DNA from: Micrococcaceae bacterium UBA6021
GTDB taxonomy: Bacteria > Actinomycetota > Actinomycetes > Actinomycetales > Micrococcaceae
Direction of reading: 5' to 3'
DNA: 14,358 bases
NCBI GenBank assembly: GCA_002427975.1
Contig: DIZT01000014.1
Coordinates: forward strand, 1-14,358
The notes beneath the pieces are model-generated. The model did no database searches, was not told the DNA's origin, and saw only the letters and a list, made by a program, of their open reading frames with translations. Positions 1 through 13,639 of the stretch are shown here, piece after piece. A program made the translations under genes and the position numbers. The first letter of the stretch is position 1. Every line of letters begins with the position of its first letter.

Positions 1-1165
1 CGAACTGCGGCTCGGCCAGCTTCACCGAAATGACCGCCGTGAGGCCTTCGCGGATATCGTCACCGGTGAGGTTGTCGTCCTTTTCCTTGATGATGCTCTT
101 CTCCCGCGCGTAGCGGTTGATGAGGGATGTCATCGCAGCGCGGAAACCCTCTTCATGGGTGCCGCCCTCGTGGGTGTTGATGGTGTTGGCGTAGGTGTGG
201 ACGCTCTCGGAATATGCGTTGGTCCACTGCATCGCCATTTCCAGCGCGATGTGCCGTTCCGTGTCCTCGGTTTCGAAGGAAATGACGTCCTCGTGGACAA
301 CATCAACCTTCTTGCCCGAGTTCAGGTGCTTCACATAGTCCAGCAGCCCGTCGTCGTACTGGTACACCACGGTGCGGTGCTCAGCGGTGACTTCACCTTC
401 GGTGACCACCGTATCAAGGTCAAGATCCTCGCTGGCGTCCGTGTGCGCCTCTGCGGTGCGCTCGTCCGTGAGGGTGATCCGCAGTCCCTTGTTCAGGAAA
501 GCCATCTGCTGGAAGCGGGCGCGGAGCGTCTCGAAATCAAACTCCGTGGATTCGAAGATACCCTCGTCCGGGTAGAACGTCTGGGTGGTGCCGGTGGTGC
601 CGCTCTCTTCACCTTTGACCAGGCCGCCCTGCGGCTTGCCGCCGTCGGCGAAAGACATCCGCCAGACGTTGCCCTGGCGCCGGACCTCGGTGTCCACCCG
701 GCTGGAGAGGGCGTTAACCACGGAGATACCCACACCGTGGAGGCCGCCGGAGACTGCATAACCGCCGCCGCCGAACTTGCCGCCGGCGTGCAGGATAGTC
801 ATGACCACTTCGACGGTGGGCTTGTGCTCGGTGGGATGCATGTCCACCGGGATTCCGCGGCCATCATCAACAACTTTGACGCCGCCGTCGGCCTGCAGGA
901 GTATTTCGATGTGCGTGCAGTACCCGGCCAGCGCCTCGTCAACAGAGTTGTCCACCACTTCATAGACCAGGTGGTGCAGGCCGCGCAGCCCGGTGGAACC
1001 GATGTACATGCCGGGGCGTTTCCGCACGGCCTCGAGACCCTCGAGTACAGTAATGTCGCTTGCACCGTATTCCCGCGGTGTCACTGCCTCCGCGGGCGTA
1101 CCGGGGGTAGGTACATCCTCCGCTGCGCGTTCCACTGCCTGGGTATCTGTATTGTCGTTAGCCAC
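1..1165 (-). CDS. gyrB: DNA gyrase subunit B, N-terminal part (runs off the left edge)
   Basis: This is the ATPase subunit of DNA gyrase, which with GyrA introduces negative supercoils ahead of replication forks. About 388 residues are present, covering the GHKL ATPase domain and most of the transducer domain. Visible motifs are [14 protein letters not shown] with the metal-binding Asn, DDGRGIPVD, the lid glycines [25 protein letters not shown], and [16 protein letters not shown] at the window edge. The TOPRIM domain and C-terminus lie outside the window. I place the start at a GTG at 1163-1165 (VANDNTDTQ); a GAGGAG lies 12 bases upstream, a slightly long spacing. The reading frame stays open further upstream but has no better start with a ribosome site. 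The gene is the distal member of the leftward dnaA-dnaN-gnd-recF-dciA-gyrB series, but the 374-bp gap before it suggests its own promoter. The identification is certain; the start is likely. Confidence 0.97.
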
Positions 1166-1539
1166 AGGTGCTGTCGACTCCTCTTTTTCGATGATGGCCG
1201 GCGGCGGCCTTCCCGAGGGAAAGCAGCAGCCAACAGGCACAAGCTGATGGCGCTGATGAGCAGGTCATCCTGCAGAACCGAAGTCCGCCTGCGGAGAGCG
1301 AGCGGAAAACGGACTCAGTCAACGTTTCACCGGCGCCCAGTTATCTGCTGTGATTCTATCGTGAAATGGGCTACAAACCCGCATTCCGGGGGCCTCGCGG
1401 AACCCCGATATGCCCGCGTGAGGCCATTGGCCGCGCCTTGGGCGCCCTCGCGGTCCCGCCTCCGGGTGCCTATACACTCCAAGGGCGTTGGACCGCCGTA
1501 CACGCCGTCGGACGAATATTCAAGGGCCAACGGCGGCGG
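1166..1539. other. Intergenic region between dciA and gyrB; gyrB leader
   Basis: These 374 bp hold no gene I can support. Frames that stay open here are Arg/Pro/Gly-rich and run into neighbouring genes in the wrong phase. The only promoter-like strings on the gyrB strand are TAGAAT (complement of 1353-1358) and GATAAC (complement of 1340-1345). Neither has a recognisable -35 hexamer at 16-18 bp. The length and the downstream gyrB suggest a regulated leader, since supercoiling-controlled gyrase promoters are known in actinobacteria, but that is inference. No convincing terminator hairpin follows dciA. Confidence 0.4.
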
Positions 1540-2097
1540 CTAACCGTAAGTATCGCGCGGCCCGCGCCCGTTGACGGTCCGTCCGCCCTTGCGCCAGCTG
1601 GGTGCCGACGGTCCGAGCACCTGGATGCTGGTGACCACGCCGTCGCCCAGTTCGGTGCGGAATTTTTCCAGCAGGCTGATGCTCAGGAGCCGCAGCTGCG
1701 TGGCCCAGGCCGTCGAATCGCAGCGCACGTGAAGGGTAGTATCCGTAAAGCTCTCCGGGGTGCAGTGCGCTGAAATTTCCGGGCCAACCAGCGTGGCCCA
1801 CTCCGCCATGACAGAACCCACCGCTACCGGCGAGCTCCAGCCACGTTCGGCTACGAGTCGTCCCACGACTTTGCCCAGTCCCAGGGGATCACGGCCGGTC
1901 GAATGGAACTGGCTGAAGCCGCGGGTGTCCCTGATCCCGCGCTTTGTCTTGGCGGCGCCGGCCTTGGGGAGTGCCTTTCGGCGGATTTCGCCGCGCGCTG
2001 CCGCTGCCTCCCGCATGCGGTTCAGGGCCGCCTGGGGCGCATCGATGGTGTCAGGATCGCGGCCGGGCTGCAGCCCGCCGTTTTCATCCTTATTCAT
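1540..2097 (-). CDS. dciA: DUF721 / DciA-family helicase-loading protein
   Basis: This 185-residue protein belongs to the DUF721 (DciA) family. Members interact with the replicative helicase DnaB and help load it in bacteria that lack DnaC or DnaI. The N-terminal ~65 residues are charged and probably flexible. The family core starts near residue 70 (DPLGLGKVVGRLVAERGW). It carries the typical pattern W100-ATLVGPEISAHCTPESF and then LHVRCDSTAWATQLRLL (about 122-138), including the conserved Trp131. The ATG at 2095-2097 lies inside the 3' end of recF with an 8-nt overlap, which implies translational coupling. Position after recF and before gyrB is usual for actinobacteria. The stop is TAG. The family assignment is strong; the helicase-loader role rests on work on family members, not on this sequence. 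Confidence 0.9.
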   Translation of the reverse strand: MNKDENGGLQPGRDPDTIDAPQAALNRMREAAAARGEIRRKALPKAGAAKTKRGIRDTRGFSQFHSTGRDPLGLGKVVGRLVAERGWSSPVAVGSVMAEWATLVGPEISAHCTPESFTDTTLHVRCDSTAWATQLRLLSISLLEKFRTELGDGVVTSIQVLGPSAPSWRKGGRTVNGRGPRDTYG

Positions 2098-3292
2098 CGA
2101 TTCCTCCCGGAATGACCTTCACCCGCCGGCCGGACAGTTCCTCCGGGATATCGGCGTCGACGGCGGCGGTCACCAGGACCTGTTCCGCGCCGGAGACTAT
2201 TGCCGCCAGTTTACGCCTGCGTTGGACATCCAGCTCGGCGAACACGTCGTCGAGGATGAGGATCGGGGCGGACCCGCCGGTCCTGGCGTCATCAAGCATG
2301 ACGTAATAGGAGGCGAGCCGGAGCGAAAGGCACATCGACCAGGTTTCGCCGTGTGAGGCATAGCCCTTGGCGGGCGCCTCGCCGAGGATCAGTTCCAGCT
2401 CATCCCGGTGCGGCCCCACCAGCGAAATTCCGCGTTCAAGCTCCTTGCGGCGCGACGCCGCGAAGGCCTGCACGTAGCGCCCGGTGAGCTCCTCAACGGT
2501 GAGATACCGCAGGTCTTCGGCAGCGGCGGAGCCAGCCACCGTCAAACCGCCGCCTGCACTCGGCGCCGCGCCGCCGTCGTCGTCCATCAGGTTTTGCAGT
2601 GTGGACCGGTACATGGCGCTGGCTTCCTTGGAGCCGTCTGTGAGCTGGGCATATGCCTTGGCCAGATGTGGGCGCAGCAGTTCAACCAATTCCAGCCGGG
2701 CGTGCAGCAGCTCGGCTCCCGCCCGGGCCATGTGCTGGTCCCAGACATCGAGGGTGGCAACGTGCCCCGCGGTGAACTTTCCGGCCCGCGCGGATTTGAG
2801 CAGGGCGTTGCGCTGCTTCAGGACCCGGTCGTAGTCCGTTCGCGTCGCCGAGTGCCGGGGAATGAGGCTAACCAGGAGCTCGTCAAGGAAACGGCGGCGG
2901 TTTGAGGGGTCTCCCTTGACCAAGGCCAGGTCCTCGGGTGCGAACAGTACGGTCTGGCAGATTCCGAGGAGGTCCCGGGCCCGGACGGGGTTGCTGCGGT
3001 TGATCCGTCCGCGGTTGGCACGGCTGGCGTTGATCTCAAGTTCCAGCACCGTGGTCTGCCCGCCGCGGACCACGCGGGCCCGTACCAACGCGCGGTCAGT
3101 ACCGAACCGCAACAGCGGAGCGTCGGAGCTGACCCGGTGCGAGCTGAGTGTGGCCAGGTATCCGATGGCCTCCACGAGGTTGGTTTTGCCGATCCCGTTT
3201 GCCCCCACCAGGACCGTGACGCCGGGCTCGAGGGCAAGGTCAACCTGGGCGTAGCTGCGGAAGTCAGTCAGCGAAAGGTGTTCTAGGTACAC
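2090..3292 (-). CDS. recF: DNA replication/repair protein RecF
   Basis: RecF is an SMC-like ATPase that, with RecO and RecR, helps RecA load at single-strand gaps and stalled forks. At 400 residues it has full family length. The Walker A motif GANGIGKT is at residues 30-37. The signature LVGPHRDELEL lies in the C-terminal half and Walker B is ILILDDVFAELD. The frame begins with GTG at 3290-3292 (GTG TAC CTA), giving the family-typical opening MYLEHLSLTDFRSY. The ribosome site is weak (GAAG about 6 bases upstream). An ATG 11 bases upstream is out of frame. The 3' end overlaps dciA by 8 nt. A hairpin at 3310-3328 separates it from gnd, so it may be partly uncoupled from upstream transcription. 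Confidence 0.97.
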   Translation of the reverse strand: MYLEHLSLTDFRSYAQVDLALEPGVTVLVGANGIGKTNLVEAIGYLATLSSHRVSSDAPLLRFGTDRALVRARVVRGGQTTVLELEINASRANRGRINRSNPVRARDLLGICQTVLFAPEDLALVKGDPSNRRRFLDELLVSLIPRHSATRTDYDRVLKQRNALLKSARAGKFTAGHVATLDVWDQHMARAGAELLHARLELVELLRPHLAKAYAQLTDGSKEASAMYRSTLQNLMDDDGGAAPSAGGGLTVAGSAAAEDLRYLTVEELTGRYVQAFAASRRKELERGISLVGPHRDELELILGEAPAKGYASHGETWSMCLSLRLASYYVMLDDARTGGSAPILILDDVFAELDVQRRRKLAAIVSGAEQVLVTAAVDADIPEELSGRRVKVIPGGIDE

Positions 3293-3309
3293 GCGGTCTT
3301 CATAATTCT

Positions 3310-3328
3310 CGGAACCCCGAGGGTTCCG
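3310..3328 (-). terminator. Hairpin between gnd and recF (possible U-less terminator or attenuator)
   Basis: CGGAACCC, a 3-base loop, then GGGTTCCG form a perfect 8-bp GC-rich stem. It sits 9 bp after the gnd stop and 17 bp before the recF start. Read on the transcribed minus strand it is followed by AGAATTATG, which is not a real T run. It resembles the U-poor hairpins common downstream of actinobacterial genes, so partial termination or an mRNA end stabiliser are both possible. Confidence 0.4.
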
Positions 3329-3337
3329 GGGTGGATC

Positions 3338-4222
3338 TTACTTGGCGGGACGGGTGGCATGCCCGCCGAACTGGTGACGCAAAGCGGAAACCATCTTCAT
3401 CGCCGGCGAATTCTCTTCGCGGGAGGAAAAGCGTGCGAAGAGTGCAGCCGTGATGGCCGGGGCCGGAACAGCGTTGGCGATGGCTTCTTCGACCGTCCAG
3501 CGTCCTTCGCCCGAGTCCTCGACATAGTCATCAATGGATTCCAGCCCCGGATCCTCGTCCAGCGCTTTGACCATCAGGTCCAGCAACCAGGACCGGACCA
3601 CAGTGCCCTTTTGCCAGGCGCGGAATGTTCCGGGAAGATCATCGACGATGTCTTTGGCGGCCAGCAGTTCATAGCCTTCTGCGTAGGCCTGCATCAGGCC
3701 GTACTCGATACCGTTGTGGACCATTTTTGCGTAGTGGCCTGCACCGATTACACCCACGTGGACAAAGCTGTCGGCGCGCTCCCCTTCGGGACGGAGGACA
3801 TCAAAAACAGGCAGTGCGCGCTCAATATCGGCGGCGTCGCCGCCGGCCATCAGGCCGTAACCGTTCTGGAGGCCCCACACACCGCCGGAAACCCCGCAGT
3901 CGGCGAAACCGATGCCCCTTTCAGCCAGCGCGGCACCATGTTTCTGGTCCTCGGTGAAGCGGGAGTTGCCGCCGTCGATCACCAGGTCGCCGGCGTCGAG
4001 CTTGTTCCCCAGCTCGGTGATGACGGCATCCGTGACGTCGCCGGACGGGACCATGACCCAGACCAGCCGCGGCGCTGGAACGGCCGCAATGAGCTCATCC
4101 ACGGAGGCAACGTCGGTGACGTCGGGGTTTCGGTCAAAACCCGTGACCTCGATGCCACCCTTGCGCAGGCGTTCGCGCATGTTGAAACCCATTTTGCCGA
4201 GGCCGATCAGTCCGATATGCAC
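3338..4222 (-). CDS. gnd: 6-phosphogluconate dehydrogenase, decarboxylating (short YqeC/GntZ-like form)
   Basis: This enzyme oxidatively decarboxylates 6-phosphogluconate to ribulose 5-phosphate with NAD(P)+ in the pentose phosphate pathway. The N-terminal Rossmann motif is GLIGLGKMG. It is followed by VIDGGNSRF, the substrate-binding DCGVSGGVWGLQNGYGLM and the catalytic-region GAGHYAKMVHNGIEYGLMQ. The 294-residue length matches the short ~300-residue class, not the ~470-residue dimeric class. I prefer the GTG at 4220-4222 (VHIGLIGLG) because the family begins at the first Rossmann strand and AAAAGAG lies 8 bases upstream. An ATG at 4268-4270 would add 16 non-family residues and lies directly against the large palindrome, with no ribosome site. 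A metabolic gene here, between dnaN and recF, is usual for actinobacteria as I recall. The NAD versus NADP preference cannot be read from the sequence with confidence. Confidence 0.92.
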   Translation of the reverse strand: MHIGLIGLGKMGFNMRERLRKGGIEVTGFDRNPDVTDVASVDELIAAVPAPRLVWVMVPSGDVTDAVITELGNKLDAGDLVIDGGNSRFTEDQKHGAALAERGIGFADCGVSGGVWGLQNGYGLMAGGDAADIERALPVFDVLRPEGERADSFVHVGVIGAGHYAKMVHNGIEYGLMQAYAEGYELLAAKDIVDDLPGTFRAWQKGTVVRSWLLDLMVKALDEDPGLESIDDYVEDSGEGRWTVEEAIANAVPAPAITAALFARFSSREENSPAMKMVSALRHQFGGHATRPAK

Positions 4223-4270
4223 GCTTGAGACTCTTTTCTGCGCTGGGGTGGCGGTTTCGTGACGGGTCAT

Positions 4271-4336
4271 CCCAACTAGGTCGCATTAGATGTCGTTATG
4301 GGCGCCCATAACGACATCAACTGCTACCTAGTTGGG
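4271..4336. repeat. 66-bp near-perfect palindrome at the dnaN-gnd junction
   Basis: The inner 30 bp (4289-4318) is a perfect loop-free palindrome: GATGTCGTTATGGGC followed by its exact complement. The outer arms are CCCAACTAGGT (4271-4281) and ACCTAGTTGGG (4326-4336), also perfect. Across the full 66 bp, 30 of 33 positions pair; the mismatches are 4282/4325, 4286/4321 and 4288/4319. The dnaN stop codon (complement of 4328-4330) and the preceding Asn codon lie inside the right arm. It ends one base before an unused ATG at 4270. No T run follows on the minus strand. It may be a dnaN 3'-end hairpin or terminator, a dispersed palindromic repeat, or a site for a dimeric protein. Confidence 0.9.
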
Positions 4337-5452
4337 GAGGCGGACGGGCATGACCAGGTAACGGTAGTCATCCTGGTCCTCACCGTCGGCGTCGCCCTGG
4401 GCCGTGATCATGGCGGGCTTCGGCGCGGTGGTAAAGGAGAACCTGACGTACTTCGTTTCGATGACGCTGAGCCCCTCCACCAGGTAATGCGGGTTGAAGG
4501 CAACGGTGATGTCCTCGCCGGAGAGCTGGGCTTCGAGCTCTTCGGAAGCCTGGGCGTCCTCGCCGGTGCCGGCGTCCAGGTGCAGCAGTCCTTCGGTGAA
4601 AGCCAGCCGGACCGGGGTGTTCCGCTCGGCCACCAGGGACACACGGCGCACGGCTTCCACGAGTTCCTGGGTCTGGACTGTGGCGTGGATCGGGGTGGAG
4701 TCGGGGAACAGCGAGCGGATCTTGGGGTAGTCACCGTCCACGAGCAGCGATGTGGTGGTGCGGCCGCCGCTCTCGAAACCGATCAGACGGCTGTCATCGT
4801 CAGCCAGGGCAAGGTTGATGTCGCCGCTGTTGCCAAGAGTCTTCGCTACTTCGTTGAGGGTTTTTGCCTTGACCAATGCACTGGTGGAAATTCCCGGGGT
4901 GGTGGGCTTCCACGGCACTTCGCGCATAGCCAGGCGGTACCGGTCCGTGGCCAGGAGCGTGATGAGGTCATCCTCGATCTCCATGCGGACGCCGGTGAGG
5001 ATGGGGAGGGTGTCATCCTTGCTGGCCGCAATGATCACCTGGGACACGGCCTGGGCGAACGCGTCACCCGGGACAGTGCCGCTGATGGCGGGCAAAGCAG
5101 GCAGCGGCGGGTATTCAGCCTCGGGCATGGTGGCCAGGTGGAAGCTGCTGCGGCGGCAGGTCAGCGTGACTTTGTTGCCGTCGGTCTCCACGTCCACCGG
5201 AGCCGAAGGAAGGCTCCGGCAAATGTCGGCAAGAAGGCGGCCGGAGACGAGGATGGTCCCTTCAGCGGTGATATCCGCCGGGATTTCCAGCCGTGCGGAG
5301 GTCTCGTAGTCAAAACTCGAGAGGCTGACCGTTCCGGCTTCAGCCTTCAGGAGCAGGCCCGACAACACTGGAACTGGCGGCCGCGGAGACAACGACCGGG
5401 CTGTCCAGGTGACGGCTTCTGCCAGGACGTCCCGTTCGACTCTGAACTTCAC
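4328..5452 (-). CDS. dnaN: DNA polymerase III subunit beta (sliding clamp)
   Basis: The beta clamp forms a ring dimer around DNA and tethers the replicative polymerase and many repair partners. The 374 residues fit the three-domain clamp fold. The opening VKFRVERDVLAEAVTWTARS, the segment RPPVPVLSGLLL and the C-terminal YRYLVMPVRLPN (the MPxRL end near the partner-binding pocket) are family features. I start at GTG 5450-5452: AAAGGCGG is 9 bases upstream and the protein then begins exactly at the conserved MKFRVER position. The frame remains open to an ATG at 5548, but the extra 32 residues have no family character. The stop codon lies within the 66-bp palindrome. The gene lies downstream of dnaA across the origin spacer. 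Confidence 0.97.
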   Translation of the reverse strand: MKFRVERDVLAEAVTWTARSLSPRPPVPVLSGLLLKAEAGTVSLSSFDYETSARLEIPADITAEGTILVSGRLLADICRSLPSAPVDVETDGNKVTLTCRRSSFHLATMPEAEYPPLPALPAISGTVPGDAFAQAVSQVIIAASKDDTLPILTGVRMEIEDDLITLLATDRYRLAMREVPWKPTTPGISTSALVKAKTLNEVAKTLGNSGDINLALADDDSRLIGFESGGRTTTSLLVDGDYPKIRSLFPDSTPIHATVQTQELVEAVRRVSLVAERNTPVRLAFTEGLLHLDAGTGEDAQASEELEAQLSGEDITVAFNPHYLVEGLSVIETKYVRFSFTTAPKPAMITAQGDADGEDQDDYRYLVMPVRLPN

Positions 5453-5698
5453 GGAAGGGTGCCGCCTTTCATTGCTGCTGCCATGTCTGAACCGGAAACT
5501 CCCACAGGGAGCCCAAAAGTAGTGGCGCCCCAACAACGGAACCTGCATGGTTCATCGGTTGCTGAACCACAAAGAAACCCGAGGATGGGAGCGCTGCTGA
5601 CAGCTTAGCCGGAAGACCGCTGATTAACCCATCCCCGGCCAGCACGCCCGGCATGCGGGGGGCCCTTGGGCCTGGGTCGGTTCGGGGCGCGGATCGAG
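5453..5698. other. dnaN leader and GC-rich flank of oriC
   Basis: This non-coding stretch lies between the dnaN start and the AT-rich part of the origin. A 7-bp inverted repeat (TGGTTCA at 5548-5554 with TGAACCA at 5563-5569, 8-base loop) could be an operator or leader hairpin. The part at 5641-5695 is very GC-rich with short GGGCCC-type repeats. I see no clear -35/-10 pair for dnaN and no supported gene. Confidence 0.5.
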
Positions 5699-5759
5699 AT
5701 TGTTATTTGAGGGAAATCAATTTCTTGGGATTAGTAGTGTTAATAACTGCTGTGGATAC

Positions 5760-5768
5760 TGTGGATAA
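5760..5768 (-). promoter_or_regulatory. DnaA box, perfect TTATCCACA
   Basis: This is an exact consensus box on the minus strand. It is directly abutted by a one-mismatch box at 5751-5759, forming a head-to-tail tandem pair next to the AT-rich stretch. Confidence 0.85.
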
Positions 5769-5939
5769 CTCGATCCGGCCGCAGGATCCAGCGGTTAAGC
5801 CCTGTTCACGGATTGTGGGCGACGCAGTTTTAAACAGGCTGTGGATGGGGATAACAACTTTTGCGTTTTCGCTGATCCACAGGCGCCTTAAGGGTTTTAA
5901 GCCCATTAACCGCGGTTGTCCCCTTAAGTATCCACAGGG

Positions 5940-5948
5940 TTATCCACA
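5940..5948 (+). promoter_or_regulatory. DnaA box, perfect TTATCCACA
   Basis: This is an exact consensus box on the plus strand. A GTATCCACA box at 5928-5936 precedes it with a 3-bp gap, so this is a second tandem pair, near the dnaA 3' end and oriented opposite to the 5751-5768 pair. Confidence 0.85.
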
Positions 5949-5980
5949 TGCACCTGTTAATAAGGTATAGAGGCGACGGC

Positions 5981-7402
5981 TCAGGAGTTGCGCTGCTGCT
6001 GCTTGATCCTGTTGGTGAGCTCAGTGACCTGGTTGTAGATCACACGGCGCTCAGCCATCAGCTCACGGATTTTGCGGTCGGCATGGATCACCGTGGTGTG
6101 GTCGCGGCCGCCGAGTTCCTGGCCGATCTTGGGCAGTGACATGTCCGTGAGCTCGCGGCAGAGGTACATGGCGATCTGCCGGGCGGTCACCAGCGTGCGC
6201 GTACGCGACTTGCTGCAGAGTTCTTCCATGCTGAGCTTGAAATACTCAGCCGTCTGGACGAGGATCTGGCTCGAGGTGATTTCCTGGGCGCCGTCGTCGG
6301 TGATGAGGTCCTTCAGGACCATCTCCGCCAGGGCCACATCGACCGGCTGCCGGTTCAGGCTGGCGAAGGCCGTCACCCGGATCAGCGCGCCTTCGAGTTC
6401 GCGGATGTTGCTGGAAATTTTGGAGGCGATGTATTCCAGGGCGTCGTCCGGGGCGGAGAGGCCTTCGCTGAGGGCCTTTTTCCGCAGGATGGCGATGCGG
6501 GTCTCCAGTTCGGGCGGCTGGATGTCGGTCAGGAGGCCCCACTCGAAGCGTGACTTCATCCTGTCCTCGAAACCTGCCAGCTGCTTGGGCGGCAGATCGG
6601 AGGTGATGACCACCTGTTTGTTGTTGTTGTGCAGGGAGTTGAAGGTGTGGAAGAACTCCTCCAGCGTCCGGTCCTTGCCGGCCAGGAACTGGATGTCATC
6701 GATCAGCAGCACGTCCACGTTGCGGTACGTGGTCTTGAAGCTGGCGCCTTCGTCGTCGCGGATGGAGTTGATGAAGTCGTTGGTGAACTCCTCGGAATTC
6801 ACGTACCGGACGCGGATTCCGCTGTACAGGCGGCGGGCATAGTGGCCGATGGCGTGCAGGAGGTGGGTTTTGCCCAGCCCGGAATCACCGTAGATGAACA
6901 GCGGGTTGTAGGCCTTGGCCGGTGCTTCGGCTACCGCCACCGCGGCTGCATGGGCAAAACGGTTGGACGAGCCGATCACGAACGTATCGAAGACGTACTT
7001 GGGATTCAGCCGGCCGAATTCGTGGGAAGTGCTCGGCAGCATCGGCTGCGGCTTCTGTTCGATCAGCTGGTCCGGGGAGTAGGAAGGCTCGACGACGGGT
7101 TCCGGCTCTACGTGGATGGGCACCAGGTCGGTGTCCACGTCGATCGCGCAGCGGATGTCTTCGGAAAAAACGCTGTGCAGGGCGTCGTCCAGGGCGTCCT
7201 TGACCTGGGTCTGAAGGACTTCGCGGGTCAGCTCATTGGGAACGGCCACCAGGAGGGTGGAACCGATCAGGCCCTGGGCCTGCGCCAGGATGACAAAGCC
7301 CCGCTGCCGTGGTGAAACGCGGTCGTCCTGTTCGAGCAGGCTCACAACGCGACGCCAGGAACTTCCGACAGTATTGGCGTGGTTGGCTTCGTCTACTGTC
7401 AT
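5981..7402 (-). CDS. dnaA: Chromosomal replication initiator protein DnaA
   Basis: DnaA is the AAA+ initiator that binds DnaA boxes, opens the origin and recruits helicase. From the ATG at 7400-7402 it has 473 residues. Domain I spans about 1-90 ([10 protein letters not shown]...). A short linker of about 40 residues follows, much shorter than the long domain II of Streptomyces. The AAA+ domain begins near 134 ([23 protein letters not shown]), with Walker A GDSGLGKT at 172-179, Walker B LLIDDI at 232-237, and ITSD...[10 protein letters not shown] with sensor and arginine-finger residues. Domain IV ends in the DNA-binding signature [14 protein letters not shown] (431-444). A TTG immediately upstream could also initiate, but GAGGAA is 7 bases from the ATG, which decides for it. 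DnaA boxes on both sides of the gene suggest autoregulation. Confidence 0.98.
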
Positions 7403-7870
7403 CAATCAGTTCCTCAAAACTTGCGTGCCTGCATTACGTGCAGCCCCAAGTCCGGAACCAGGATGCTGGTCCAGGTTCATCCACAGGGTTATGCACAGTC
7501 CGTGGATAATCGGCTACTGAGTCACTCTAGGGGATCAAAACGCCAGAAGATAGCTGGGAAGTAGCTTGTGGATAATTACACCGTTGTGGTTCGAAAACAG
7601 GCCCTGTGAGCCACTTCATCCACAGGCTGACCGCGGAAGTTAACCACAGCCGGAGGCAGGGACCCAGGGGTGGCCCGGTTTGACTCTGGGGCGTATTTGG
7701 CCCTAACGTTGTGATGTCCTTTGTGTACGCTTTTTGGCCCCATCTGAATCTCTCCGACGCAGCGCGTTTGAGCAGCCGGGGGAAGCGTACATATACAAAA
7801 CTTAGCGTCGGCCAGTTCTTCTCATTTACTGATCGGGTGGGCGCACCTTTGATCCACTGGAGTAACTAAC
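7403..7870. promoter_or_regulatory. dnaA-rpmH divergent intergenic region with a second DnaA-box cluster
   Basis: This 468-bp spacer holds promoters for both divergent gene sets and a second group of boxes. A perfect TTATCCACA is at 7567-7575 (minus). One-mismatch boxes are TCATCCACA at 7477-7485 and 7616-7624, TTATGCACA at 7489-7497, TTATCCACG at 7501-7509 (minus) and TTAACCACA at 7640-7648. The three boxes at 7477-7509 are packed within 33 bp, 75 bp upstream of the dnaA start, where bound DnaA could repress dnaA. I could not assign a dnaA promoter with confidence. No small gene is visible here. Confidence 0.75.
7768..7797 (+). promoter_or_regulatory. Candidate promoter for rpmH-rnpA
   Basis: TTGAGC (7768-7773), an 18-bp spacer and TATACA (7792-7797) give 4/6 matches each to the -35 and -10 consensus. 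Transcription would start near 7804, leaving a leader of about 67 nt before rpmH. It is the best pair I see in this stretch, but the match is moderate. Confidence 0.35.
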
Positions 7871-8008
7871 GTGAGCAAGCGGACTTTTCAGCCGAATAAC
7901 CGCCGTCGAGCCAAGAAGCACGGCTTCCGCCTTCGTATGCGTACCCGTGCCGGCCGTGCCATCCTGGCAGCCCGTCGTGGCAAGGGCCGCACCGAACTGT
8001 CGGCCTAG
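7871..8008 (+). CDS. rpmH: 50S ribosomal protein L34
   Basis: This 45-residue, strongly basic protein is a component of the large ribosomal subunit. The sequence shows the family pattern: [18 protein letters not shown], then [21 protein letters not shown], ending ELSA. Length is normal for L34 (44-47). The start is GTG at 7871-7873 with GGAG 8 bases upstream; the stop is TAG. It is the first gene of the rightward block and is followed after 40 bp by rnpA, the near-universal rpmH-rnpA pairing. Confidence 0.97.
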
Positions 8009-8048
8009 ATAACTGACTCGTCGGTTAACTTTTCTTTGCGAGTTTAAG

Positions 8049-8459
8049 GTGCTGGCCACCCGTAACCGTTTGAGGACTGCAACCGATTTTTCAACAACTG
8101 TACGTTCCGGTGTCCGCAATGGACGCCGGAACGTAGTGTTATATGCGGCAGCTATAGCTGCCGAGGAACCCAGCCGGATCGGGTTCATCGTTTCCAAAGG
8201 TGTCGGGAACGCTGTGGTCAGGAACCTCGTTAAGAGAAGACTGAGAGAAGCCGGTGCTGCCTCGCTGCGCGAGTACGGTACCGGGTTCGCCATAGTGGTC
8301 CGGGCGCTGCCTGCGTCCGCGGCCGCCAGCTGGGATCAGCTGTTGGCGGACTACAACGCCGCACTGGAATCAACTACGAACCGGTTGGGCAGCCGCCTTC
8401 CGCGGGCTGCTGTAAACGGTTCAGCCGGTACAACACAGGAGGGGACAGAGCGTGCGTAA
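8049..8459 (+). CDS. rnpA: Ribonuclease P protein component
   Basis: RnpA is the small basic protein subunit that supports the RNase P RNA in cleaving tRNA 5' leaders. It has 136 residues. The opening LATRNRLRTATDFSTTVRSG and the central signature GNAVVRNLVKRRLREA (about 53-68), with the Arg/Lys-rich helix that contacts RNA, define the family. The C-terminal ~30 residues are Ser/Thr/Gly-rich and poorly conserved. The start is GTG at 8049-8051, giving the family-typical MLATRNRL; the ribosome site before it is weak. Its end overlaps the yidD start by 8 nt, implying coupled translation. L34, RnpA, YidD and YidC are commonly encoded together. Confidence 0.96.
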   Translation: MLATRNRLRTATDFSTTVRSGVRNGRRNVVLYAAAIAAEEPSRIGFIVSKGVGNAVVRNLVKRRLREAGAASLREYGTGFAIVVRALPASAAASWDQLLADYNAALESTTNRLGSRLPRAAVNGSAGTTQEGTERA

Positions 8460-8847
8460 GGTAACTGCCGCCGTCGTCCACTACCTGCAGCCTGTTGCTG
8501 CCGCTGTGGGCGCCTTCCTCTGGAACCTGCCCAGAAACATTCTTATTCTGCTGCTGATGGCCTACCGCAAGGTGATTTCCCCCTTGTACGGCCAGGTCTG
8601 CCGCTTCTTTCCTTCCTGCTCGGCGTATGCCCTCGAGGCAATCACCGTCCATGGCGCAGTGAAGGGCAGCTGGCTTGCGGCCCGCCGCCTTGTGCGCTGC
8701 CATCCGTGGAATGCCGGCGGTGTGGACCATGTCCCCGCCGGCCACCGCCACTGGCCCGATCACCGGACCCCCACAATTGTTGTGCTGAACAACCCGGACA
8801 AATACCTGGCTGCTCAGACTGATGGAGAAGGCCGCTTTGCGGCCTGA
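8452..8847 (+). CDS. yidD: Membrane protein insertion efficiency factor YidD
   Basis: YidD is a small membrane-associated protein that assists insertion of inner-membrane proteins in concert with YidC. The domain at about 37-95 is diagnostic: AYRKVISPLYGQVCRFFPSCSAYALEAI followed by GAVKGSWLAARRLVRCHPWNAGGVDHVP, with Cys50, Cys56 and Cys83. A hydrophobic segment at about 17-38 likely associates with the membrane. The 131-residue length is longer than the 70-90 residues of many homologues because of an N-terminal ~30-residue extension and a C-terminal ~35-residue tail. The GTG start at 8452-8454 has an excellent ribosome site (AGGAGGGG, 6 bases away) located inside rnpA, so it should be translated well. 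A hairpin straddles its stop codon. Confidence 0.95.
   Translation: MRKVTAAVVHYLQPVAAAVGAFLWNLPRNILILLLMAYRKVISPLYGQVCRFFPSCSAYALEAITVHGAVKGSWLAARRLVRCHPWNAGGVDHVPAGHRHWPDHRTPTIVVLNNPDKYLAAQTDGEGRFAA
8829..8845 (+). repeat. Hairpin over the yidD stop codon
   Basis: AGGCCGC, a TTT loop and GCGGCCT form a perfect 7-bp GC stem whose last base is the first base of the yidD TGA. It lies 18 bp before the yidC start with no T run. It may temper readthrough or protect mRNA between yidD and yidC, or be a by-product of GC-rich coding sequence. Confidence 0.5.
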
Positions 8848-8863
8848 CGAATAGGGATAACGT

Positions 8864-9838
8864 ATGGACATCTTTGGAACAATTCTGGCCCCGTTCAAGT
8901 GGCTTGTGTCCGCCATCATGATCGGTTTCCACGACGGACTGAGCTTCATGGGCTTACCGCCGGCGAACGGCTGGACCTGGACGGTGTCCATCATCGGTCT
9001 TGTGCTGGTGATCCGGGCGGCCCTGATCCCGGTCTTCGTCAAGCAGATCAAGGCCCAGCGCGGTATGCAGCTGCTGCAGCCGGACCTGAAGAAGCTCCAG
9101 GACAAGTACAAGGGAAAGACTGACCAGCTCTCCCGCCAGGCCATGGCTCAGGAACAGATGGCCATGTACAAGAAGCACGGTACGAACCCGTTCTCGGCCT
9201 GCTTGCCGATGGTGATCCAGATGCCGTTCTTCTTCGCGCTGTTCCAGGTGCTCTCCGGTATCACGGCTGCACGCCAGACGGGCATCGGGATAGGGGCGAT
9301 GAGCCACGAACAAGTGGTGCAGTTCGATGAATCCAGCATTTTCGGCGCCCCACTGTCAGCATCCCTCTTGCATGGCGGCGGCGGCGACCAGGTGGTTGTG
9401 TGGGTCCTGTCTATCGTGATGATCCTTGCCATGACGGCCTCGCAGTTCATCACCCAGAAGCAGATCATGGCCAAGAACATGTCCGAAGAGGCCATGGCCA
9501 GCCCGTTCATGCGCCAGCAGAAAATGATGCTGTACATCCTGCCGCTGGTGTTCGGTGTGGGTGGCATTAACTTCCCCATCGGTGTGCTCATCTACTGGAC
9601 CACCACCAACCTGTGGACCATGGGGCAGCAGTTCTTTGTCATCCGCCGCATGCCGACGCCGGGATCCCCTGCCGCCAAGGCACTTGCCGAACGCCGGGCG
9701 GCCAAGGGCCTGCCGGCCCTGCCCATTCTGGGCGGGAAGAAGGCCGACGCCGAAGCGGAGGCGGCTGCCGCAGCCGCGGTCATCGAGCAAAAGGGACAGC
9801 GCCCCCAGCCACAACGTAAGAACAGGAAGAAGAAGTAA
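8864..9838 (+). CDS. yidC: Membrane protein insertase YidC/Oxa1 family
   Basis: YidC inserts and folds membrane proteins, alone or with SecYEG. The 324-residue protein lacks the large periplasmic domain of Proteobacterial YidC, as expected for Gram-positive types. Hydrophobic segments lie at about 8-25, 38-58, 112-132, 177-196 and 223-248. Arg51 in VIRAALIPVFVKQ corresponds to the conserved groove arginine. The cytoplasmic hairpin (about 60-105) is highly charged and followed by NPFSACLPMVIQMPFFFALFQVL. The C-terminus has an Ala/Glu-rich stretch (295-310) and a basic tail ending RKNRKKK, which in related proteins contacts ribosomes. The ATG at 8864-8866 has AGGGA 7 bases upstream. Its TAA shares one base with the jag ATG (TAATG), a tight translational coupling. 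Confidence 0.97.
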   Translation: MDIFGTILAPFKWLVSAIMIGFHDGLSFMGLPPANGWTWTVSIIGLVLVIRAALIPVFVKQIKAQRGMQLLQPDLKKLQDKYKGKTDQLSRQAMAQEQMAMYKKHGTNPFSACLPMVIQMPFFFALFQVLSGITAARQTGIGIGAMSHEQVVQFDESSIFGAPLSASLLHGGGGDQVVVWVLSIVMILAMTASQFITQKQIMAKNMSEEAMASPFMRQQKMMLYILPLVFGVGGINFPIGVLIYWTTTNLWTMGQQFFVIRRMPTPGSPAAKALAERRAAKGLPALPILGGKKADAEAEAAAAAAVIEQKGQRPQPQRKNRKKK

Positions 9839-10404
9839 TGTCAGCCGAGAGCACCGAAAAGGCCGTTTCCGACGAGGTCATTGAGGATCAGGACGAATCC
9901 TCGACGGACGCCGATGCTTCCCCCAAGGGATCTGCTGCCAGCCGCCTCGAAGAAGAAGGCGACGTTGCTGCCGATTACCTGGAGGAACTCCTGGACATCG
10001 CCGACATCGATGGCGACATTGACATCGAAGTCCGGAACGGACGCACGTACATTTCCATCGTTGCCGAGGAAGACTCCGATGGCCTCGACAGCCTCGTAGG
10101 CGAAGACGGCGAAGTCCTGGAAGCTCTTCAGGAGCTGACCCGGCTCTCTGTTCTCTCCGCGACGGAGAACCGCTCACGCCTGGTGCTGGACATCAACGGC
10201 TACCGTCAGCAGCGTGCCGGCCACCTCCAGAAGATTGCCGAGGACGCCGCAGCGTCGGTCCAGGAGACCGGCAAGGCCGTGGCGCTGGAGCCGATGAGTG
10301 CCTACGAACGCAAGATCGTTCACGACGCTGTCGCAGACCTGGGCCTCGTCAGCGAGTCCGAGGGCGAAGGCGCCGGACGCCACATCGTTGTATCCGCAGA
10401 CTAG
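9838..10404 (+). CDS. khpB: KH-R3H RNA-binding protein (Jag/KhpB-like)
   Basis: This 188-residue protein matches the Jag/KhpB family of RNA-binding proteins linked to cell-envelope and division control and usually encoded after yidC. The N-terminal ~45 residues are acidic and disordered-looking. A KH domain (about 50-120) carries the GxxG loop in LVGEDGEVLEALQELTRLSV. The C-terminal R3H domain (about 125-188) contains MSAYERKIVHDAVADL, with the Arg158-x3-His162 motif. The Jag_N domain found in Firmicutes is absent, as is usual for actinobacterial members. It starts with the ATG of TAATG at the yidC stop, with GGAAGAAG upstream. Specific RNA targets cannot be predicted. Confidence 0.9.
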   Translation: MSAESTEKAVSDEVIEDQDESSTDADASPKGSAASRLEEEGDVAADYLEELLDIADIDGDIDIEVRNGRTYISIVAEEDSDGLDSLVGEDGEVLEALQELTRLSVLSATENRSRLVLDINGYRQQRAGHLQKIAEDAAASVQETGKAVALEPMSAYERKIVHDAVADLGLVSESEGEGAGRHIVVSAD

Positions 10405-10424
10405 AGAATGCTGATCCGCTAATC

Positions 10425-11075
10425 ATGGTTGACATCACGGCAGCTGAATTGCTGGCAGCTGAGAAGATTTTCGGCGACCGCCTGGATCTGGCCAAACGCT
10501 ACGTAGAGCACTTGGCTACGTCCGGGACGGAACGCGGGCTGATTGGGCCGCGCGAGATTCCTCGGCTGTGGAGCCGGCACGTTCTCAATTGTGCCGTCAT
10601 CGAGAGCGAGATCGCCCACGGCAGCCATGTTGCCGACGTTGGTAGCGGAGCCGGACTCCCCGGACTTTGCCTGGCCATCGCGAGGCCGGACCTCGAGCTC
10701 ACTCTGATTGAGCCGTTGGAACGCCGGGTGATCTGGCTCCAGGAAGTGGTGGACGATCTGGGCCTGACTAACGTCACAGTGATGCGTACCCGCGCGGAAC
10801 TGGCGGTAGGAATGGTTGACGCTGATGTTGTCACTGCCCGGGCGGTGTCCGCGCTGAGCAACCTGGCTGGTCTGACCATCCCTTTGCTCGCCGGCAAGGG
10901 TGAGGTTGTGGCCATTAAGGGACGCAGCGCGGGTGAGGAAATAGAAAAGGCCGCGAAGGTCATCCGGAAGCTCGGGGGCGTTCAGACTTCCGTGGTGACT
11001 GTTGGGGAAAACCTTCTGGAAGAGCCCACCACGGTGGTGCGGATTATCGTGAACAAGTCCCGAAAGATCTCCTAG
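10425..11075 (+). CDS. rsmG: 16S rRNA (guanine527-N7)-methyltransferase RsmG
   Basis: RsmG (GidB) transfers a methyl group from S-adenosylmethionine to N7 of 16S rRNA G527; in several bacteria its loss gives low-level streptomycin resistance. The 216-residue protein shows EIPRLWSRHVLNC (45-56), the SAM-binding VADVGSGAGLPGLCLAI (69-85), TLIEPLERRVIWLQ (motif II region) and VTARAVSAL. Length is normal. The ATG at 10425-10427 lies 20 bp after the jag stop and lacks a clear ribosome site. A five-codon reading frame (ATG CTG ATC CGC TAA, 10408-10422) ends two bases before it and could couple translation. It is the usual gene between jag and parA in actinobacteria. Confidence 0.95.
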   Translation: MVDITAAELLAAEKIFGDRLDLAKRYVEHLATSGTERGLIGPREIPRLWSRHVLNCAVIESEIAHGSHVADVGSGAGLPGLCLAIARPDLELTLIEPLERRVIWLQEVVDDLGLTNVTVMRTRAELAVGMVDADVVTARAVSALSNLAGLTIPLLAGKGEVVAIKGRSAGEEIEKAAKVIRKLGGVQTSVVTVGENLLEEPTTVVRIIVNKSRKIS

Positions 11076-11091
11076 TCCGGGCCCGGTAGCC

Positions 11092-11119
11092 TTGGTCTGC
11101 GGGGCGAAGCGGTTAGGCT
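11092..11119 (+). promoter_or_regulatory. Candidate parAB promoter
   Basis: TAGGCT (11114-11119) is a good actinobacterial -10, with TTGGTC (11092-11097) 16 bp upstream as a weak -35. A start near 11126 would give a ~38-nt leader before the parA GTG and would include the parS at 11307 in the transcript. Confidence 0.4.
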
Positions 11120-11163
11120 AGACAACGGCAGCAAAAAAGCCGAACGAGAGTGAGTGTGTCCCA

Positions 11164-12231
11164 GTGACCAGTAGCGAAGCCTCCACACAACGGATTCCCC
11201 CGTTTGTGTCTTTGGGGTCAGCACGATCAGTTGCTGGCATGGGTTCGGCGCCGGGCCGAGGGGATATTCACCCCACTCCGGTTGCGGATATGGCGATTCT
11301 TGCCTCTGTTTCACGTGAAACAGCAATAGGTGGCCGAATCAGCGTTATGGACACCATGGACGACTCCAGTCCGATCGCCCGGGAGCTCGCACACGAGACC
11401 AGACGCCGGGAACGCCTCGTTGGCCGCAATCTGCCCAAGCCCGAGAAAACCCGGATCTTCACGGTGTCCAACCAAAAGGGCGGGGTCGGCAAGACCACCA
11501 CTACAGTGAATATCGCTGCCGCCCTGGCCGCTGCCGGCTTGAATGTCCTGGTCATTGACATTGATCCCCAGGGCAACGCCTCCACTGCGCTGGGTGTTGA
11601 GCACCATGCCGATGTGGACAGCATCTACGACGTCCTGATCAACGATTTCCCCCTGGCTGACGTTGTGGCGCCATGCCCGGACATCAGCAACCTCATCTGT
11701 GCTCCGGCCACCATTCACCTGGCCGGTGCGGAGATTGAGCTTGTCTCGCTTGTGGCCCGTGAACAGCGGCTGCGCAGGGCGATCGACGTCTATGCCAAGA
11801 CCCGGGCCAAGAACGGCGAAGTACGCCTCGACTACATCTTCATTGACTGCCCGCCGAGCCTCGGGCTGCTCACGGTTAATGCTTTCTGCGCTGCCGGAGA
11901 AGTGCTCATCCCCATCCAGTGTGAGTACTATGCCCTGGAAGGCCTGAGCCAGCTCCTCAAGAACATTGAAATGATCCAGAAGCACCTGAACGCTGATCTG
12001 GTAGTCTCCACCATTCTCCTTACGATGTACGACGGCCGAACCAACCTTGCAGCCCAGGTGGCAGCGGAGGTGCGCCTGCACTTCCCCGATCAGGTCCTGG
12101 GTGCTGTGGTTCCCCGTTCGGTGCGAATTTCTGAGGCCCCGAGCTACCAGCAGACTGTTATGACGTACGATCCTTCCTCCAGTGGAGCCCTGTCTTACCT
12201 GGAAGCCGCAGCCGAAATCGCTGAACGCTAG
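11164..12231 (+). CDS. parA: Chromosome partitioning ATPase ParA (Soj)
   Basis: ParA is a Walker-type ATPase that binds DNA non-specifically and moves ParB-parS complexes to segregate origins. The deviant Walker A KGGVGKTTTT is at 105-114, with the signature Lys105. DIDPQGNAS (132-140) is the switch I/A' motif and YIFIDCPPSLGLLTVNA is Walker B. The end, PRSVRISEAPSYQQTVMTYDPSSSGA, is family-typical. The frame starts with GTG at 11164-11166 (355 residues), but residues 1-61 are low in conserved features, and ATGs at 11347 (Met62) and 11356 (Met65, MDDSSPIARELA) are credible starts. A perfect parS at 11307-11322 encodes Val-Ser-Arg-Glu-Thr at 49-53. I retain the long form because other actinobacterial ParA sequences I recall show VSRET at a similar place and a promoter fits upstream. 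The start is uncertain. Confidence 0.93.
   Translation: MTSSEASTQRIPPFVSLGSARSVAGMGSAPGRGDIHPTPVADMAILASVSRETAIGGRISVMDTMDDSSPIARELAHETRRRERLVGRNLPKPEKTRIFTVSNQKGGVGKTTTTVNIAAALAAAGLNVLVIDIDPQGNASTALGVEHHADVDSIYDVLINDFPLADVVAPCPDISNLICAPATIHLAGAEIELVSLVAREQRLRRAIDVYAKTRAKNGEVRLDYIFIDCPPSLGLLTVNAFCAAGEVLIPIQCEYYALEGLSQLLKNIEMIQKHLNADLVVSTILLTMYDGRTNLAAQVAAEVRLHFPDQVLGAVVPRSVRISEAPSYQQTVMTYDPSSSGALSYLEAAAEIAER
11307..11322. promoter_or_regulatory. parS: parS site within the parA 5' coding region
   Basis: TGTTTCACGTGAAACA is a perfect 16-bp palindrome equal to the bacterial parS consensus recognised by ParB. It lies 144 bp into the long parA frame and is read as Val-Ser-Arg-Glu-Thr. ParB bound here could nucleate spreading and affect parAB transcription. 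Confidence 0.95.
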
Positions 12232-12297
12232 AATCTTCAAGAACTGCAACAACCGGAGTCCGGCAAGGTCTGGCTCTTCCATCGGAGGGATTTATCC

Positions 12298-13584
12298 ATG
12301 AGCGAAAAGCGACGGGGCCTAGGCCGCGGTCTTGGCGCACTCATTCCAAGTTCCGCCGGTAGTGCGTCGGGCAACGGCAGCGCTGTGTCGCGGCCTGTGG
12401 ATCTCTTCTTTCCGGAAGGCCGTAAGAAAGTCGAACGCTCTGACGACGCCGCAGAGAATGGCACGTCAGCGTCCACCCCTTCCGCTTCGGCCGCGCAGGC
12501 GTCGGCCACGGACGCCGCGGTAACGAAGGATGATGCCACGCCGGGAACCGCCTCCCCCGCGAAGCCGGCTGCCAAGACAGTCGAGAAGTCGCCTGCAGCG
12601 AAAGCCCCGGCCAATGCTCCCGCCAAAGCGCCGACAAAAAGCCGTGTGCCCGCGAATTCCGCGGACAGTGCGTCCGTTCCGGTTGAATCCGCTCCTGACG
12701 TCTCTGTCCGCGGGGCAGCTGAAACCCAGAGCAGCAACACTGATAACGGCGTGGACCTGATAGAGGTCCCCGGAGTCCGCTTCGCCGAGATTCCGGTCAC
12801 GGACATCCACCCCAACCGCAAACAGCCCCGCTCAGTCTTCGATGAAGATGACATGGCGGAGCTTATCCACTCCGTGCGCGAAATCGGCGTCCTCCAGCCA
12901 ATTGTGGTTCGTACTTCAACCGAAAAGGGTGGAGAACCTTACGAGCTGGTCATGGGTGAGCGTCGCTGGAGGGCGGTGCAAGCGGCAGGGATGGAAACCA
13001 TCCCCGCCATTGTCCGGGACACCACCGATGATGACCTGCTCCGCGATGCACTCTTGGAAAACCTGCATCGCAGCCAGTTGAACCCGCTCGAAGAGGCAGC
13101 GGCCTACCAGCAGCTGCTTGAAGACTTCGGGACCACACACGAACAGCTTGCCGACCGTATTGGACGTTCACGTCCCCAGGTAACGAACACGCTGCGCCTG
13201 CTCAAGCTTCCGCCCCTGGTCCAGCGCCGGGTGGCAGCCAGTGTTCTTTCCGCTGGTCACGCCCGTGCACTGCTCGCTCTGCCGGATGCCGCGGCCATGG
13301 AACGCCTCGCCCAGAAGATCGTTGCCGAGGGCATGTCGGTTCGGGCAACCGAAGAAGCCGTGACGCTATACCAGGATCCCGCGAAGCCTGCCAAAAACAA
13401 CATCCCGCGACCCGGAGCCCGCCATGAGCGTCTGGACTATCTGGCGTCATCCCTGTCGGACCGCCTGGACACCAGTGTCAAGATTTCGCTTGGTGTCCGC
13501 AAGGGACGGGTCAGCATTGAATTTGCCAGTGTTGAGGATCTGAACCGCATCATGGAAGTTCTTGCGCCAGGTTCAGAGAACTAG
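12298..13584 (+). CDS. parB: Chromosome partitioning protein ParB (Spo0J)
   Basis: ParB is a CTP-dependent clamp that loads at parS, spreads and is moved by ParA. The N-terminus [14 protein letters not shown] (4-17) is the family motif that stimulates ParA. Residues ~45-150 form a long Ala/Pro/Ser/Lys-rich linker. The ParB/Srx nucleotide domain begins near 160, with GVLQP (197-201), [12 protein letters not shown] (220-231) and [14 protein letters not shown] (254-267), which contribute to CTP binding. A helix-turn-helix for parS lies at about 281-303 ([23 protein letters not shown]). The C-terminal dimerisation domain ends in APGSEN. The 428-residue length is large because of the linker. The ATG at 12298-12300 has GGAGGG 8 bases upstream; parA ends 66 bp before it. 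The gene is followed by a terminator that contains parS. Confidence 0.97.
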
Positions 13585-13597
13585 CGTTTCTCCATTC

Positions 13598-13639
13598 AAG
13601 GAAGGTCCTGTTTCACGTGAAACAGGACCTTCCTTTTTT
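13598..13639 (+). terminator. Intrinsic terminator after parB with parS at its centre
   Basis: A perfect 38-bp palindrome (13598-13635; 19-base arms, no unpaired loop bases by sequence) begins AAGGAAGG and ends CCTTCCTT. It is followed by more T, giving T6 at 13634-13639. It starts 13 bp after the parB stop. The central 16 bp are the parS sequence, so in RNA the upper stem and loop come from parS. This is an unusually strong stem for this GC-rich window and a classical hairpin-plus-U terminator. Confidence 0.85.
13609..13624. promoter_or_regulatory. parS: parS site in the parB terminator
   Basis: A second perfect TGTTTCACGTGAAACA, 24 bp after the parB stop and 2.3 kb from the first. Both lie about 5.5-8 kb from the dnaA-dnaN origin spacer, the expected location of parS clusters. 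The flanking bases GGTCC and GGACC extend its symmetry. Confidence 0.96.

Follow-up and report, generated by a model that had tools for sequence, protein, structure and literature searches.

The 66-bp palindrome that encloses the dnaN stop codon in Micrococcaceae bacterium UBA6021 is one complete unit of a dispersed family found in Arthrobacter, Pseudarthrobacter and a few related genera. Membership of this family, the length of the unit, its placement at the 3' ends of genes, its species-specific palindromic cores, some orthologous inheritance and occasional replacement of the interior are established by the comparisons given below. The copy was analyzed within a 14,358-nucleotide stretch of contig DIZT01000014.1 (forward strand, positions 1 to 14,358), referred to here as the window.

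The palindrome occupies positions 4271-4336 and was the longest of 8 inverted repeats recovered from the window by a repeat search (maximum distance 200). The dimensions given in a preliminary description of this DNA were reproduced by script: 30 of 33 pairs are matched, with a loop-free core of 15 pairs (30 bp, 4289-4318) flanked by perfect 11-bp outer arms and mismatches at unit pairs 12/55, 16/51 and 18/49. The dnaN stop codon, described as enclosed by the palindrome, was confirmed to lie inside its right arm (CTA on the + strand, 4328-4330). The mismatches had been read as a possible joint of two nested signals; this reading was abandoned, as a single repeat unit spans all 66 bp and each of its arms represents a different arm variant of the family, GGTCGCATTAGA (shared with G237) and GGTAGCAGTTGA (shared with L031). 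Searches against Rfam returned nothing in the window at gathering scores. The parts of the unit are:

4271-4336, no strand: complete 66-bp palindromic unit, family type A
4271-4277, + strand: outer arm CCCAACT, conserved family-wide (in loci picked by core, not by arm)
4278-4290, + strand: variable arm AGGTCGCATTAGA, which varies among copies and is mostly still paired
4291-4300, + strand: core half TGTCGTTATG, a word present in the window's own genome and in many related Arthrobacter genomes
4301-4306, no strand: variable centre GGCGCC, self-complementary in the window copy
4307-4316, + strand: core half CATAACGACA, the reverse complement of 4291-4300
4317-4329, + strand: variable arm, a variant other than that of the left arm (three mismatches)
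4328-4330, - strand: dnaN stop codon TAG, at unit positions 7-9 (CCC AAC TAG)
4330-4336, + strand: outer arm AGTTGGG

The window copy is loop-free because its centre, GGCGCC, is self-complementary.

Dispersal within the window's own genome, a draft estimated at 83% completeness, was measured in two ways. The search for the 15-base arm proposed in the preliminary description, in which up to 2 mismatches were allowed, returned 32 matches (counting both arms of the window copy), versus 7 for the reversed pattern. A covariance model, with 150 of 706 candidates scored, gave at least 76 both-strand matches at no fewer than 39 places on many contigs; 37 of the 39 places are 66 bp long, one is 61 bp and one is truncated where a contig ends. 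By a rough word rule, 14 of 36 full-length units in this genome are of type A, 14 are of type B (core ACGTCGTSA...) and 8 are of other types, one of the latter having arms ATCGATTGCTCCG. In a scan of a genome contig collection, the core TGTCGTTATGN6CATAACGACA was present in 106 stretches, all titled Arthrobacter or Pseudarthrobacter. With the covariance model, 60 of the 61 genomes from the genus were positive (matches on both strands counted, no more than 85 candidates scored for each genome), and the covariance counts, for the genus as for the own genome, are lower bounds. The pattern CCCAACTN{38,68}AGTTGGG matched 51 of the 61 genomes, with a maximum of 81 units (G012) and 0-2 matches for the reversed control; G005 gave 0 both with this pattern and with the covariance model. 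A pattern with a fixed 52-bp interior matched 18 of 197 genomes from the taxonomic family, representing 4 of 32 genera; across the order it matched 4 of 198 genomes (15 of the 198 from the family), all of the window's own genus. Among plasmids, a single Arthrobacter record (1.35 Mb) was hit, at 11 weak places.

Related palindromes of 60-66 bp, with arms ATCGATTGCTCCG... and TGCCGTT- or TGCCCTT-like cores, make up a sister family whose ends differ; examples lie at positions 231085 and 392579 of the G006 stretch and at L284 of the own genome. In the open-access literature, judged by title and the opening of the abstract, no description of a 66-bp Arthrobacter palindrome family was found. In the portion of PMC12306157 available, a row of the RepRanger table lists Arthrobacter livingstonensis with palindrome-type counts, and single units may be contained in that output.

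In the flanks of 107 copies (the 106 stretches and the window), conservation and pairing have sharp limits 33 bp from the centre in both directions, beyond which just a weak preference for C/G is seen some bases further out; therefore 66 bp is the unit. The ends CCCAACT...AGTTGGG are common to these 107 copies, which were picked by core. When outer arms were searched in the retrieved DNA at any spacing from 40 to 100 bp with no pairing rule, 116 of 124 perfect-arm places were 66 bp long, 3 were 65 and 1 was 64, and the reversed control gave 0; with one mismatch allowed per arm, 172 of 409 places were 66 bp, as against 1 of 300 in the reversed control. Hand counting of the listed outer-arm pattern units (52-82 bp allowed) gave 70 of 75 at exactly 66 bp, the others being 64, 65, 74, 78 and 80 bp. 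A finder based on ungapped pairing placed 198 of 228 units at 66 bp and none at that length in the reversed control; this finder overlooks units with an off-centre single-base gap, and 4 of 26 pattern loci are 64-65 bp long.

Because selection of many loci relied on the outer arms or on the type-A core, these parts are conserved in part through the selection itself; claims about the core accordingly rest on seven genomes whose units were picked by outer arm, claims about the ends on the 107 core-picked copies, and claims about length on the listed outer-arm pattern units and the 40-100-bp arm search. In the seven genomes, identity within and between genomes was 0.84 and 0.45 for columns 21-30, 0.85 and 0.62 for columns 8-14, 0.62 and 0.46 for columns 15-20, and 0.62 and 0.58 for columns 31-33. 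Consensus cores are plainly unlike among genomes (e.g. GCGCGTTTTG, GGCCGTTTTG, GGGCGTTC and GCACTCAAA), and an average of 25.6 to 29.0 of 30 pairs per genome were Watson-Crick, with 24.4 in the own genome. The core of the unit is thus species-specific yet palindromic. In an alignment of 50 of the 107 units, 94.3% of cells were paired versus 86.0% after shuffling, and the covariation score was 0.264, compared with 0.115 after shuffling and no more than 0.055 when the structure was slid. Neither the pairs changed on both sides (12 of 30 versus 10.8 shuffled) nor the number of pair types (27 versus 27.4) exceeded shuffles in these 50 units, whose ten core pairs are invariant owing to selection of the loci by those pairs.

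Placement relative to genes was determined with our own codon-usage gene caller and without annotation, and orthologous units were counted separately. Among 198 units, 70 lie between convergent genes, 110 between tandem genes (57 and 53), 10 between divergent genes, 7 at edges and 1 inside a gene; the baseline in 1.6 Mb from four genomes is 188 convergent and 186 divergent gaps. Over 250 gene ends, the median distance from the upstream stop to the unit is 13 nt, with 117 ends within 0-20 nt, 44 overlapping the unit and 32 more than 150 nt away. Between tandem genes the median distance is 14 nt on the side of the upstream stop and 71 nt on the side of the next gene. The stop codon falls at unit positions 7-9, as in the window, in 37 of the 250 ends (19 gene families) and at positions 11-13 in 5.

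A species-specific core in a constant frame, with symmetry that carries no RNA-strand bias, is what would be expected if the unit were a site on DNA whose core is read by a species-specific dyad-binding protein (nucleoid- or chromosome-organizing), the outer arms serving as spacers. Such strong proximity to stop codons is unexpected for a site acting on DNA only, however, and cores vary within one genome, types A and B occurring together in the own genome; we consider this reading improbable.

A stable hairpin just past the stop is predicted by folding for the window unit, and units generally lie close to stops. The minus-strand RNA of the window unit with 20-nt flanks folded at -52.8 kcal/mol versus a shuffled mean of -27.7 (z -7.9), and 0 of 200 shuffles were as low. 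The minus strand carries no T-run after the palindrome, as had been reported, and among units at large just 12 of 218 were followed by 5 or more T within 10 nt. Hairpins with a U-tract are rare in convergent gaps of both classes (3 of 58 with a unit versus 8 of 115 unit-free). A canonical intrinsic terminator was rejected on account of the missing U-tract. Mismatches in 100 tandem units showed no G.U excess on the transcribed strand (64 G.U versus 74 A.C, p 0.44), and thus give no sign of selection on RNA pairing; because the hairpin is so stable, this test is low in power.

Elsewhere in the window, a perfect 38-bp palindrome behind parB (13598-13635) is followed by a T-run and has at its centre TGTTTCACGTGAAACA, which we take to be the ParB-binding consensus, parS; the whole resembles a canonical terminator that incorporates a parS site. 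The parA-like ORF, in its listed extent, contains a second copy of this 16-mer at 11307.

The dnaN locus was compared in 30 loci from 61 genomes (the own genome included) and in Arthrobacter sp. B6; the compared dnaN genes end MPVRLPN. The 66-bp unit lies directly behind dnaN in the window and in L120, L121, L126, L138, L050 and L326 of G012. A second repeat, starting TCCCC (TTCCC in L134), takes this place in L116-L119, L123, L127, L128, L130, L132-L136, L139, L140 and L144; in G056, G015 and G004 remnants of a unit can be seen behind it. L129 has a degraded unit, and other or only short sequence follows dnaN in L122, L124, L125, L131, L137 and L141-L143. The unit is therefore not essential behind dnaN. 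Relatives without it also end dnaN in CCCAAC plus a stop (the same Pro-Asn codons), so the match between the end of dnaN and the end of the unit is either older than the unit or an old scar. The dispersed family accounts for dnaN as a recurrent insertion place. The proposal in the preliminary description that a mobile unit had landed at the 3' end of dnaN held in that the unit is dispersed, biased to 3' ends and carried by some relatives but not others; no actual movement was observed.

The second repeat was also found interrupting 66-bp units after CCCAACTRR at L066, L106 and L333 of G012. It stands directly after CAACTAG, CAACTGA or CAAG, and in L066 it is nested in itself; behind dnaN in L144 (G011) there are three head-to-tail starts of it, each after a CAACTAG-like word. 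One form contains CGCAAGCTCGGCCAGGGAACCCTGGC, for which an exact 26-mer match was present in 18 of 61 genomes of the genus. As regards the neighbouring gene, the gnd-like ORF at 3338-4270 is listed from an ATG at 4270, and relatives begin at a GTG or ATG before HIGLIGLGKMG; its start is therefore probably the GTG at 4222, which makes the gap to dnaN 105 bp.

A stable hairpin does stand behind dnaN, as it would if the palindrome were a private dnaN terminator or a cruciform site linked to oriC. The occurrence of the unit at 39 places in its own genome, the other elements or short sequence behind dnaN in many relatives and the missing U-tract make such an account very improbable, and as a sufficient explanation it is refuted by the dispersed family. 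The suggested role in replication near oriC likewise found no support, since copies lie on many contigs and many relatives have other or short sequence behind dnaN.

Descent of units was followed in 145 ortholog pairs with units on both sides, of which 112 had junctions aligned within 6 nt and 107 allowed a comparison with paralogues. In the 56 pairs with flanks at least 85% identical, flanks averaged 91.0% identity and the unit 90.0%, and 160 of 368 differences were symmetric; the closest ortholog pairs show mostly few, unsymmetric differences, i.e. ordinary drift. In 83 of 102 ortholog pairs, which are not independent of one another, the unit was conserved above the intergenic bases beside it. 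The best paralogue was closer than the ortholog in 66 of 107 pairs, a count biased toward that outcome by taking the best of many paralogues. The picture is mixed, with both inheritance and homogenization.

At two loci, both involving the window's own draft genome, the type of the unit is switched in place. L285 (own genome, type B or B-like) and L060/L077 (type A) have flanks 92% identical and a unit 59% identical, with both junctions within 1 nt and 20 of 27 differences symmetric. L276 (own genome, type B or B-like) compared with L309 and others (type A) likewise has flanks at 92% and a unit at 62%, with junctions 19 and 6 nt off and 16 of 25 differences symmetric. Because the flanks are 92% identical, both cases look like an exchange of the interior and not like stepwise divergence. 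A palindrome that overwrites itself might produce them: an enzyme other than a RAYT would read the outer arms and the length and swap interiors in place, the current core of the species replacing an old one. We regard this as rather unlikely. At a place where G043 has a whole unit, only the two outer ends survive in G006. At L318 (G066) and L319 (G069), unit pairs 1-1.7 kb apart differ at 1 and 3 positions and have unusual centres in common; these two loci were picked for likeness, and local copying is possible there. Five neighbour pairs in the own genome were not unusually alike and gave no sign of local spread.

Candidate mobilizing functions were sought in the same genomes. The RAYT family (Y1_Tnp, PF01797) was matched in 1 of 61 genomes of the genus and in 5 of 14 controls, and mobilization by RAYT was rejected on this basis. 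In the Actinobacteridae, according to the part of PMC6006769 consulted, tnpA-Y1 genes are of subclass 1.1 only. A MITE of a DDE transposon would be expected to show a target-site duplication and to have an autonomous parent with the same ends. Of 198 units, no more than 1 at any repeat length had exact flank repeats of 4 nt or more; base matches between flanks exceeded shuffles by up to 2.3 sd (k=5), which leaves room for very old duplications. Inspection by eye of the 14 largest flanking-gene clusters revealed no obvious transposase beside units, and the ORFs between the close unit pairs of L318 and L319 also looked ordinary by eye.

The consensus of integron attC sites has YYYAAC/GTTRRR ends on a hairpin behind a gene, and the unit resembles it in these ends and in its place behind stop codons. 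Unlike attC sites, the units are dispersed with no arrays seen, and their symmetry is near-perfect. AAC is replaced by AAG in one arm of about a fifth of the 107 copies, and no purine rule holds before YYY. An integron integrase was found over the cut-off in 0 of 61 genomes, with sub-cut-off matches in 61 of 61; none of the 14 control genomes passed the cut-off either, so this search had no positive control. An integron-type attC site is hardly credible as an explanation of the unit.

We incline, with a little better than even confidence, to a REP-like palindrome of nearly fixed length that settles behind stop codons, spreads by a route other than RAYT and is kept as a two-way hairpin at 3' ends. 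Units would spread as a mobile palindrome by some mechanism other than RAYT. Transcribed from either side, a unit would yield a very stable hairpin, which, needing no U-tract, could close or protect upstream mRNAs at their 3' ends in both directions, and copies would persist owing to this role. Judged from sequence, the two-way hairpin function is the best account of why units are kept, at about an even chance.

The main rival, possible but clearly less probable, holds that the units are selfish or passive palindromes with no host function that insert into non-coding DNA and survive only where they are harmless, behind genes, their pairing being maintained by template switching in replication, which copies one arm onto the other. 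It would fit a sense strand with no preference for G.U, the switch of type by 27 changes (20 symmetric) between flanks 92% identical, the outer ends left alone in G006 and the interruption of units by the second repeat at several loci. The near-identical neighbours in G066 and G069, picked for likeness, are in keeping with it, although own-genome neighbours are not unusually alike. Against it, tandem units adjoin the upstream stop rather than the middle of the gap, and the unit is conserved above neighbouring intergenic bases in most ortholog pairs, as described above; the hairpin kept at 3' ends remains our preferred reading.

Several known systems resemble the family in part. DNA uptake sequences of Neisseria and Haemophilus occur as inverted pairs at gene ends, and the unit shares with them a species-specific ten-base core, inverted and placed behind genes; it differs in its 66-bp frame with conserved outer arms. 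In 1.6 Mb from four relatives, the core 10-mer was absent and the 7-mer occurred 137 times versus 113 for the reversed word. No enrichment outside units was thus seen in this weak test, the units of these relatives having mostly cores spelled otherwise, and an uptake sequence was regarded as less likely.

In E. coli, cruciform-capable inverted repeats and intrinsic terminators lie behind stop codons, as described in the abstract of PMC6060812, and the Arthrobacter unit likewise places a stable hairpin in the first tens of bases past the stop. In contrast to intrinsic terminators, it has no U-tract and forms one sequence family of nearly fixed length, and the window copy needs no loop. With this family it becomes testable whether mRNAs of high-GC actinobacteria are ended or protected by 3'-end palindromes that lack a U-tract, and for annotation the family accounts for a class of hairpins behind Arthrobacter genes.

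REP spread is usually ascribed to RAYT transposases. According to passages of PMC3733652, REPs are short dispersed extragenic palindromes that lie mostly between convergent or tandem genes and near stops; the words Arthrobacter and Actinobacteria are absent from its main text. The same passages say of CGTC-tagged REPs (dRS3 and the rickettsial RPE) that they are dispersed palindromes without a dedicated transposase; the Arthrobacter unit is a dispersed palindrome too, but lacks the unpaired CGTC tag and the CCA tail. With REPs accompanied by a RAYT it shares dispersal, extragenic position (1 of 198 units inside a gene), many copies per genome and the preference for convergent and tandem gaps. 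It differs in length (66 bp, against 20-40 bp for REPs in the part of the literature consulted), in having symmetric ends CCCAACT/AGTTGGG in place of an unpaired GTAG/CGTC tag, and in that the Y1 transposase family was matched in only 1 of the 61 genomes of the genus. Because tag and transposase, two features that define the RAYT class, are respectively missing and mostly missing, the family is filed outside that class, as a variant dispersed palindromic repeat. REP-like behaviour in a genus where one genome in 61 carries the RAYT family raises the question of what moves RAYT-free REP-like elements.
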